DNA from: Phycisphaerales bacterium | Lineage (GTDB): Bacteria > Planctomycetota > Phycisphaerae > Phycisphaerales > SM1A02 | Direction: 5' to 3' | Length of the DNA: 32,122 nucleotides | Assembly: GCA_028823105.1 (NCBI GenBank) | Contig: JAPKCC010000033.1 | Coordinates: 1-32,122 of the forward strand | Shown: in pieces, positions 22,547 to 25,036 of the stretch | Numbering within the stretch: position 1 is the stretch's first letter | Layout of the letters: every line of letters starts with the position of its first letter | Program-made: the position numbers and the translations under genes | The notes under the pieces: model-generated | What the model saw: only the letters and a program-made list of their open reading frames with translations | The model's database searches: none | What the model was told of the DNA's origin: nothing

Positions 22547-23644
22547 TCAACTTCCGATGAAACGATCGAAAATGCCCCGCGCCCAGTCAACGTCCGTGTC
22601 ACCTTCGACGATCGCCCGTCCATCCTCGAAGACGAGCATCGAAACCGGGTGGCCGCTCGGGCTCCGTTCGCCTTCCAAAACACCGCGAATCGACGCGTCT
22701 CCACGTTCGAAGACCCCGTGGACGGCCAACGTTCGCTCGACTCGGTCGAGATCGAACGATCCCTGAGTCCGTCCGGGTCGGAGCTGGACCGCGTTTCGAC
22801 CACAGAGCATTCTCGCCGCGGCAGCCTCGGCATTCAGGAAGTCAAAGCGGCCATGCACGCAACATTCACACTCGGGATTCGCAGCCGCCGACGTATCCAT
22901 CGCCCGATGCTCATTCCTCCACAGGTCGAACGACCTCAACGTTCGATCGACGGCGGGGACTTCACCAACCATCAACTTGATTGCCTGAGAGACCTGGTGG
23001 GCCGCGACGATCGTGGTCGCACTTCCCAGCACCCCGGCGGTGTCACAGGTCGGCGTCGTTCCCGGTGCTGGTGGCTCGGAAAAAAGGCAGCGAAGACAAG
23101 GCGTGGCGTCCGCATCGGTCCAGCGGATTCGCGCCTTTTCGCCCGGTCCTGGGCGAGCGAGGATCGGCATCGTCATGCCCTCAGTCGCTACCGCCGCGCC
23201 GTAGATGTACGGGATGCCGTTCGCGACTGCGTAGTCGTTGAGAAGATATCTCGTCTCGAAGTTGTCCAATCCATCCAGCAGAAGATCGCAACCAGCCGCG
23301 AGATCTCCGATGGTGCCTGAATCGATGTCTTCGACGAATGCTCGGATCCGGACCGTGGAATTCGCCTGTCCCAACCGCAGTCTGGCGGCTTCCGCCTTCG
23401 GAACACCTCGCTCCGCATCCCGCTCGGTGAAGAGGGTCTGCCGCTGCAGATTCGTCGATTCGACCACGTCTCGATCCGCGATCACCAGCGTGCCCACACC
23501 CGCGCGGCACAGAAGGTCGGCGGCGACCGTCCCCAACGCACCACATCCTGCGATGAACACGGTCGAGTCCCGCAGCCGCTCCTGGCCGCGAACCCCGATT
23601 CCCGGAAGCAACGTCTGACGGTGATATCGATCGTCGGGAGACAT
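22547..23644 (-). CDS. ThiF/MoeB-type E1 adenylyltransferase with extra C-terminal domain
   Basis: A 365-residue E1-like enzyme that adenylates the C-terminal Gly-Gly of a small sulfur-carrier protein (ThiS- or MoaD-like). Signatures are the start RYHRQTLLPGIG, the nucleotide loop GCGALGTVAADLL (33-45), NLQRQTLF (65-72), DGLDNFETRYLLND (124-137) and the two zinc pairs C183/C186 and C259/C262. The crossover Cys lies at C200 in PTCDTAGVLGS. After the zinc site, about 100 residues (266-365) form a domain that does not look like the rhodanese domain of MoeZ-type proteins. Whether it serves thiamin, molybdopterin or tRNA thiolation cannot be told; no carrier protein gene is adjacent. The ATG at 23644 has no clear ribosome site. 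Confidence 0.88.
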   Translation of the reverse strand: MSPDDRYHRQTLLPGIGVRGQERLRDSTVFIAGCGALGTVAADLLCRAGVGTLVIADRDVVESTNLQRQTLFTERDAERGVPKAEAARLRLGQANSTVRIRAFVEDIDSGTIGDLAAGCDLLLDGLDNFETRYLLNDYAVANGIPYIYGAAVATEGMTMPILARPGPGEKARIRWTDADATPCLRCLFSEPPAPGTTPTCDTAGVLGSATTIVAAHQVSQAIKLMVGEVPAVDRTLRSFDLWRNEHRAMDTSAAANPECECCVHGRFDFLNAEAAAARMLCGRNAVQLRPGRTQGSFDLDRVERTLAVHGVFERGDASIRGVLEGERSPSGHPVSMLVFEDGRAIVEGDTDVDWARGIFDRFIGS

Positions 23645-23774: not shown

Positions 23775-24401
23775 TCACCCGCCTGGGTTGGACCGCCAGG
23801 AATCGGCCGTGCCATCGAGCGCGAGATGGTCATCCGGAACGATCGCCGCACCGGCACCCTTGCTTGCCGGATACCACGGCGCGATCGCATCGATCGCAGC
23901 AAGCAATTCGTCGGTGGCGGCCGGATCAAGGTTCTGAGCCGCCTTCATCGCTCCGACGGAGATCCGGTGAAAGGCCGCCAACTGCCCGTGATACTTCTCC
24001 CGCGCCGCATCGTCTGCGGCGTCGGCAGGAGCCTTGACCCGCTGGGTCAGGAAATACCATGCGACGGTGTGCTGGAGCTTTCGGCCATGCTCCTCCTTGA
24101 CCATCGCCCAGCGAGCGATGGTATTGAGGGAGGCGGCGTCGACCTTTTCGGCCAACGTCTCGATCTGTGCAGATGCCTTCTTCATGGTCATCGCGTCGAG
24201 CCGCATCCGCCCGACCTCCGCGTGGTCGTCGTAGATCCCACAGGGAATCTCACAGTGGGCCGGCAACGACGCTGCGACCGAAGCGCGGGCGGTCTGAATG
24301 ATGCTCCGGACGTCCGGAGCGGCCGCATCAAGTACGTTGACGGCCAGCAAGCCGCCAGCGATGGTTCCGGCGACAATGCCGGCAAGGGTGGTGTTCTTCA
24401 T
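23775..24401 (-). CDS. sodN: Nickel-containing superoxide dismutase precursor
   Basis: Ni-SOD dismutates superoxide to O2 and H2O2. In known Ni-SOD the mature N-terminus His1 and Cys2/Cys6 bind Ni after a propeptide is removed. Here the hook is HCEIPCGIY at 49-57: His49, Cys50, Pro53, Cys54 and Tyr57 match His1, Cys2, Pro5, Cys6 and Tyr9, with Glu for Asp at position 3. The 48-residue leader is long and begins with a hydrophobic Gly/Ala segment (TLAGIVAGTIAGGLLAV), then a polar region ending SLPA, so cleavage after Ala48 would expose the hook. The mature part (160 residues) has the helical body and an extra C-terminal stretch of about 40. GAGGAG precedes the ATG at good spacing. The maturation protease gene sodX is not visible nearby. 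Confidence 0.93.
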   Translation of the reverse strand: MKNTTLAGIVAGTIAGGLLAVNVLDAAAPDVRSIIQTARASVAASLPAHCEIPCGIYDDHAEVGRMRLDAMTMKKASAQIETLAEKVDAASLNTIARWAMVKEEHGRKLQHTVAWYFLTQRVKAPADAADDAAREKYHGQLAAFHRISVGAMKAAQNLDPAATDELLAAIDAIAPWYPASKGAGAAIVPDDHLALDGTADSWRSNPGG

Positions 24402-24418
24402 GATCGGAATCTCCTCGA

Positions 24419-25036
24419 ATGACTAGTGAAGATCAAGAGCCTAGCGGCGTGGGGCCGGATGAGTCGATGCACTCGCACCCGAATGCGGACCAGGGACGAT
24501 CCGGCTGGGGAGAGAACCTCTCCGAGCGGCGGCGACGAAATGCGGTCGAACTCGTCGAGACGCGAGTCCGCGAAATCGAAACCCTGCTCTCGAAGTCGAT
24601 TCCGGGAGCTGGTGTCCTGACCGGATCGGCAACCTGCGCCGAGGTCCGGCTGGCGGAGACTGACGCGGCGCATCGATACCTCCGAGTCGCCTTCATGGCC
24701 CGTCACGACGTGATCGACGAAGTCAGAGCAGCCTTGCTCCGAGGGAACTTTGAAGATGCGGCTCCGGGAAGTGATCTCTCGATCATCCGCATCGCCCATG
24801 CAAATGGACGCCGCCCTCACTATGTGGTCTGCGATGGAACGCGGGATCGACTCGATGGCCCGGATGCTCCACACCCGACAAGCCCCGAGGGAAGACAACT
24901 GCGAGCTGACCGCCTCCAGGCTGCGGTCAGACCACCGGTGTTCGTGATGAGCCGGACCCTCGACCTCCGAACCGAGCGTGGCTTGGAAACCGAAACCATC
25001 GAGGTGCAGATCACCGAAGACCGTGGATCAACGTGA
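24419..25036 (+). CDS. Hypothetical protein divergent from sodN
   Basis: A 205-residue open frame with no recognised motif. An acidic, disordered start (about 1-35) leads into an amphipathic helix (RRRRNAVELVETRVREIETLL), a predicted alpha/beta segment (RYLRVAFMARHDVIDEVRAALL, SDLSIIRIAHANGRRPHYVVCD), a polar loop, and a final strand pair ending ETIEVQITEDRGST. Codon use is like the neighbouring genes. Its ATG at 24419 is only 17 bp from the sodN start on the other strand, so it may begin further in (ATG at 24467 in frame). No ribosome site decides this. It is followed after 47 bp by the glycosyltransferase gene on the same strand and may be co-transcribed with it. Function unknown. Confidence 0.6.
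   Translation: MTSEDQEPSGVGPDESMHSHPNADQGRSGWGENLSERRRRNAVELVETRVREIETLLSKSIPGAGVLTGSATCAEVRLAETDAAHRYLRVAFMARHDVIDEVRAALLRGNFEDAAPGSDLSIIRIAHANGRRPHYVVCDGTRDRLDGPDAPHPTSPEGRQLRADRLQAAVRPPVFVMSRTLDLRTERGLETETIEVQITEDRGST

Follow-up and report, generated by a model that had tools for sequence, protein, structure and literature searches.

We analyzed a 32,122-nucleotide stretch of DNA (the window) from a marine Phycisphaerales bacterium whose genome measures 3.35 Mb in 194 contigs and is 97.1% complete (contig of the gene, C139). An open reading frame on the minus strand, starting with an ATG at 24401 and reading down to 23775, encodes a nickel superoxide dismutase (Ni-SOD) precursor (Table 1). 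The 208-aa protein matched PF09055 at 98.8 bits (gathering cut-off 25, E 4.4e-28), so the hook H-C-x-x-P-C-G-x-Y found at residues 49-57 is not there by chance. The original prediction had named the protein a Ni-SOD from this hook and had described a 48-residue leader with a hydrophobic N-terminus; both claims were borne out, with His49 as the first hook residue (His1). Hook position 3 is Glu51 in place of Asp. Residues H49, C50, P53, C54, G55 and I56 were invariant across 78 aligned rows (His1, 78/78).

Table 1. Features of the sodN locus, in coordinates of the window
Feature	Coordinates	Strand	Basis
ThiF-family protein, neighbor, not thought part of the system	22547..23644	-	Pfam
Ni-SOD precursor gene, 208 aa plus stop	23775..24401	-	ORF; PF09055 98.8 bits
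C-terminal extension, predicted disordered, residues 182-208, ends WRSNPGG	23778..23858	-	Model
Four-helix bundle, residues 58-181	23859..24230	-	Model and structure searches
Nickel hook HCEIPCGIY, residues 49-57	24231..24257	-	Sequence; alignment, 78 rows
Inserted linker or propeptide, residues 29-48, predicted helix 29-44	24258..24317	-	Tree, cut-site profile, model
Signal-peptide-like part, residues 1-28 (helix 3-26)	24318..24401	-	Leader comparison and model
AGGAG ribosome-binding site	24411..24415	-	Present in 8/8 genus members
Divergent neighbor without Pfam match, not thought part of the system	24419..25036	+	Pfam, locus comparison

The predicted structural model was confident for the four-helix core (pLDDT mostly 95-98) and showed two separate helices at residues 3-26 and 29-44 and disorder at residues 182-208. 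It superposed on Ni-SOD crystal structures from residue 51 onward. Structure comparison placed seven NiSOD entries on top (Z 13.3-13.7) and FliS as the next fold (11.2); unrelated helical bundles can reach such values, and here the hook and the sequence family concur. Foldseek rows 1-16 were all NiSOD (best E 0.014, none below 0.001). The product belongs to the Ni-SOD family and, judging from its sequence, would be expected, with His1 freed, to bind nickel, assemble as a hexamer and be active. The C-terminal extension noted in the original prediction is real; within the genus it ends W-R-[ST]-x-P-G-G.

The annotated start is supported by an AGGAG a few bases 5' of the ATG in all eight genus members. 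An internal start near residues 35-40, which had also been raised, was rejected: no ATG, GTG, TTG or CTG lies there in any of the 7 genus members with start codons listed.

As originally claimed, no SodX is encoded next door, the neighbors being the ThiF protein and the divergent gene, whose product had no Pfam match. This ThiF-sodN-divergent gene arrangement was kept in the genus and at the related locus L114, and was not found at L115-L117, L075 or L076; no conserved protease neighbor of sodN was seen in any of these loci. The divergent gene begins 17 bases from the sodN start, with scarcely any space for separate promoters, and adjoins ribosomal protein genes. It shows 50-75% identity within the genus and L114. 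We found no relative of sodN among viral contigs and one plasmid record, from Ilyobacter polytropus (NC_014633.1; 36.8% identity over 55%).

Two Ni-SOD classes and the distribution of SodX

The protein shares with the classical SodN and SodX system (Streptomyces, cyanobacteria; PDB 1q0d, 1t6u) the hook, the four-helix bundle, Ala at position -1 and the need to expose His1. Classical SodN has Asp3, a short propeptide and an adjoining SodX, whereas the protein in the window has Glu3, a long leader and no SodX that we could find.

We compared 155 distinct Ni-SODs: 71 from planctomycetes (drawn with PF09055; 57 Glu/Gln3 and 14 Asp3), 72 named Glu/Gln3 proteins and 12 Asp3 proteins. The 72 named rows came from the pattern HC[EQ][VI]PCGI (best 80 of 572 matches), which fixes their hook class by construction. 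We dropped or merged L073, which is truncated, L170, in which we could place neither a start nor a leader, and rows sharing the first 80 mature residues. Start codons were chosen by hand or with a score favoring K/R, which biases leaders towards signal peptides. SodX-like ORFs were called with a home-made profile in loci of about 1.5 to 6 kb per side, some ending at contig ends.

Within the loci fetched, a SodX-like ORF accompanied 25/26 Asp3 Ni-SODs and 0/129 Glu/Gln3 Ni-SODs. The sole Asp3 miss (L019) lies against a contig end, with its start at base 87. The two classes also differed in their leaders. Glu/Gln3 leaders were hydrophobic, with a 10-residue hydropathy maximum of 1.83 to 3.47; Asp3 leaders had 8 to 23 residues and a maximum of -0.44 to 1.58, and the ranges did not overlap (17/26 Asp3 leaders measured). 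The leader in the window has Lys at residue 2 and falls inside the Glu/Gln3 range. In a quick tree built from the sequence that follows the hook, in which 80/152 forks were open, one branch split Glu/Gln3 from Asp3 (SH-aLRT 100).

Genome-wide searches with the SodX model TIGR02754 gave a similar division. Matches over the cut-off occurred in 9/14 Asp3-bearing planctomycete genomes and in none of the 56 other planctomycete Ni-SOD genomes. Four of the remaining five Asp3-bearing genomes had an adjacent match under the cut-off, and the fifth was the contig-end case. Among the named Glu/Gln3 genomes (50 of 80 loci searched), 1/50 had a match over the cut-off. Full-span SodX-like matches of at least 38 bits occurred in 7/50, each with an adjoining second Ni-SOD, which was Asp3 in 7/7. 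One genome (G440) lacked an Asp3 gene but had a full-span match of 30 bits, in a frame of 250 aa; we took this match for an ordinary signal peptidase because four controls (E. coli, B. subtilis, Synechococcus, Thermotoga) also matched weakly. A separate class draw found Ni-SOD in 8/321 genomes: six were Asp3, all with a SodX-like ORF (6/6), and two were Glu/Gln3 (one the chosen center, one already in the set), without it (0/2). A search of the window's own genome, proposed with the original prediction, gave no TIGR02754 match at E 0.001. The missing SodX is therefore the rule of the Glu/Gln3 class, not an anomaly of this gene. The absent SodX, the Glu3 and the hydrophobic leader, first listed as separate oddities, are all real, but jointly they mark a broad class.

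Judged by record title, this class extends over more than ten phyla among the best 80 of 572 pattern matches. The NCBIfam equivalog model for sodN (TIGR02753; cut-off 90 bits) scored the protein in the window at 43.6 bits and 6/6 further Glu/Gln3 proteins at 27-49 bits, all under the cut-off, while both Asp3 proteins scored over it (201 and 187).

Several other features were observed in the comparison. At hook position 7, Gly is replaced by Lys in six and by Ala in one of seven SodX-linked Asp3 Ni-SODs (L207, L208, L223, L224, L226, L227, L228); these seven are in the class counts and outside the hydropathy measurements. At least 3 His occur in the last 15 residues of 37/129 Glu/Gln3 proteins (e.g. 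L065, L127, L179, L189) and 0/26 Asp3 proteins. These tails perhaps catch nickel; the clade of the window gene lacks them. A Glu-type precursor at L072 (48-1466, minus strand) has 473 aa, of which PF09055 covers only the first 153, the rest having no Pfam match.

Direct and inserted leaders

In 98/128 Glu/Gln3 leaders the hydrophobic stretch ended at most 13 residues from His1, usually with an AxA-like site (direct leaders). Position -1 was A, S or G in 117/128 and position -3 was A, V, L, S or T in 123/128. K or R was present within the first 8 residues of 127/128, start choice having favored K/R. A twin-arginine motif was absent from the leader in the window, and RR occurred in the first 15 residues of 9/128 leaders. 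In a five-fold hold-out test, a cut-site profile built each time from four fifths of the leaders and scored on the other fifth ranked the hook first in 86/98 direct leaders. The closeness of the hydrophobic end to His1, together with the AxA-like site, suggests that, in the direct type, a single cut by signal peptidase I probably accomplishes both export and activation, so that SodX would be unnecessary there. Asp3 precursors likewise had A before His1 (19/19 examined), in agreement with SodX as a signal peptidase relative.

The direct type is already in print, in passing. In PMC12537917 (2025), the signal peptide of the Roseiconus lacunae Ni-SOD (WP_230780104.1) served as bait to find metalloproteins; in Table 1 of that paper it ends ASIASA, followed by His. 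The protein has in common with the one in the window that a signal peptide precedes a Ni-SOD, but it is of the direct type and has no insert. The word sodX is absent from that paper.

Upstream of the hook, the protein in the window carries 20-odd extra residues, as do those of its genus and of several relatives within the Phycisphaerales. In a careful tree (L068 left out), the insert-bearing Phycisphaerales formed a clade of 13 rows (support 100/100) nested among direct types, so the insert looks derived. A second group with long spacers lies outside this clade (L062, L067, L068, L069, L144, L145), and the trait needs 3 changes. At -1 these planctomycete leaders have Arg, Trp, Leu, Val or Phe, residues that should prevent cleavage by signal peptidase I. 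Within the genus, dN/dS was 0.33 for residues 1-28, 0.26 for residues 29-48 and 0.066 for residues 49-80; the leader, including the insert, is under purifying selection. The original prediction was right about the length of the leader but treated it as one unit, leaving unseparated a signal peptide (~26-28 aa) and a lineage-specific insert (~20 aa), the latter being the less ordinary of the two. Its suggested comparison with other Ni-SODs placed the insert in the 13-row clade, whereas in most of the Glu/Gln3 class the signal peptide lies directly before His1.

The cut-site profile ranked the hook top in 1/19 inserted leaders (L014 was assigned to these rows by hand). The home-made profile was ambiguous for the leader in the window: the best site fell after residue 40 (6.2), followed by those after 33, 45 and 26, the last of these being NVLDA/A just after the hydrophobic core (3.5, fourth best), with the hook sixth (2.5). 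Pro29 disfavors a cut after Ala28. In two other inserted leaders (L018 and L114), strong sites (7.9 and 8.8) directly follow the hydrophobic part. An amphipathic helix in the insert was not supported: shuffles reached the moment of the window's insert in 0.21 of draws, and the corresponding shares were 0.04-0.66 for 10 inserts and 0.03-0.85 for 20 Asp3 propeptides.

These leaders could in principle be matured in one step, with signal peptidase I cutting SLPA/H itself and the insert serving as a long c-region. Such a cut would fit the residues ahead of His49, Ala (-1) and Leu (-3), and the small -1 residue that most members of the clade retain. It would also fit the likeness of SodX to signal peptidases and the Ala at -1 that is common to both classes. 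We nevertheless consider the one-step reading unlikely. The hook was not the best site in 18/19 inserted leaders, and L017 and L014 carry Ile and Leu, respectively, at -1, neither of which signal peptidase I accepts at that position. The insert is also charged, unlike a c-region (mean of 2.7 charged residues in the last 20 of inserted leaders vs 0.9 in direct ones). The rarity of the hook as best site and the Ile and Leu at -1 make a second cut likelier for inserted leaders; in the clade of the window gene it would likely be needed and be made by a further protease. S26 matches were present in 20/20 genomes examined. We saw no extra signal peptidase dedicated to the clade among these matches, and the three S26 pieces of one genome (G000) proved to be one 557-aa frame.

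Proposed maturation and its consequences

Taken together, the sequence comparisons make it reasonably probable that the protein is a Sec-exported Glu/Gln3 Ni-SOD, cut by signal peptidase I and, in its own clade, cut a second time. The hydrophobic start of the leader would take the chain across the inner membrane, and signal peptidase I would remove the signal peptide near residues 26-28. For most Glu/Gln3 enzymes this cut would itself expose His1 and so switch the enzyme on. In the clade of the window gene, a second protease would remove residues 29-48, after which the amine of His49 could bind nickel. The mature enzyme would then act in superoxide defense outside the cytoplasm.

The original prediction had left open whether the enzyme is exported or membrane-tethered. 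Export is probable on our evidence, and tethering is less favored. An uncut leader holding the enzyme at the membrane, with the hook internal, would agree with a modeled helix (residues 3-26) long enough to span the membrane and with the weak signal-peptidase site of this leader. It is very doubtful given the invariance of His1 (78/78) and the clean cut site at His1 in most relatives. An uncut hook should also work poorly because, in PMC5722923, N-terminal acetylation abolished the activity of a Ni-SOD model peptide, while replacement of His1 did not. It is scarcely credible that the enzyme stays in the cytoplasm and that an unrecognized SodX removes the leader as an ordinary long propeptide: profile-spanning SodX-like matches of 30-34 bits, under the cut-off, occur in G116 and G109 (both Glu/Gln3 only) and in G440, but the controls suggest that such matches may be ordinary signal peptidases, the window's own genome has none at E 0.001, and none of the Asp3 propeptides measured is as hydrophobic as the leader.

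Export followed by two cuts, the reading we prefer, can be set beside the other superoxide dismutases of these genomes. Cu/Zn-SOD (SodC), the usual periplasmic enzyme, has a different fold and a different metal and is presumed to do the same job, superoxide defense outside the cytoplasm. We found no Cu/Zn-SOD in the 14 genus and family genomes, which fits an exported Ni-SOD in its place; Fe/Mn-SOD was present in 12/14 (not found in G003 and G004). In the drawn phylum, Cu/Zn-SOD occurred in 3/44 genomes with a Glu/Gln3 Ni-SOD vs 75/348 without (P = 0.025, kinship ignored), a weak trend towards replacement across the phylum.

Whether Ni-SODs as a whole have two maturation systems, one cytoplasmic with SodX and one exported with signal peptidase I as maturase, is in our view evenly balanced; the insert would part export from activation in the latter, making an exported pro-enzyme that is possibly regulated. 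Gain or loss of the hydrophobic stretch would shift a Ni-SOD between the two. Ni-SOD also follows another N-terminal module in algal ubiquitin-Ni-SOD fusions, as described in PMC6332867; these are eukaryotic, with ubiquitin instead of a signal peptide, and a general protease may free His1 there. Our search of open-licence PMC papers turned up neither the two-class rule nor the insert, a weak negative. The family itself is ordinary; the maturation route is probably unusual and under-described, and the probable two-step version in the clade of the window gene looks derived.

In PMC8346466, SodX is the activator of Ni-SOD and its absence is read as a possible loss of function. For the Glu/Gln3 class, where SodX absence is the rule and another maturation route is likely, genome surveys of superoxide defense would need rereading; the NCBI sodN model rejects 7/7 Glu/Gln3 proteins tried. 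If the proposed route is true, nickel would be loaded outside the cytoplasm, where Ni-SOD could replace Cu/Zn-SOD, and it would be among the tasks of signal peptidase I, the simplest kind of protease, to activate an enzyme. The effects of uncoupling export from activation could then be followed in the insert as a natural experiment.
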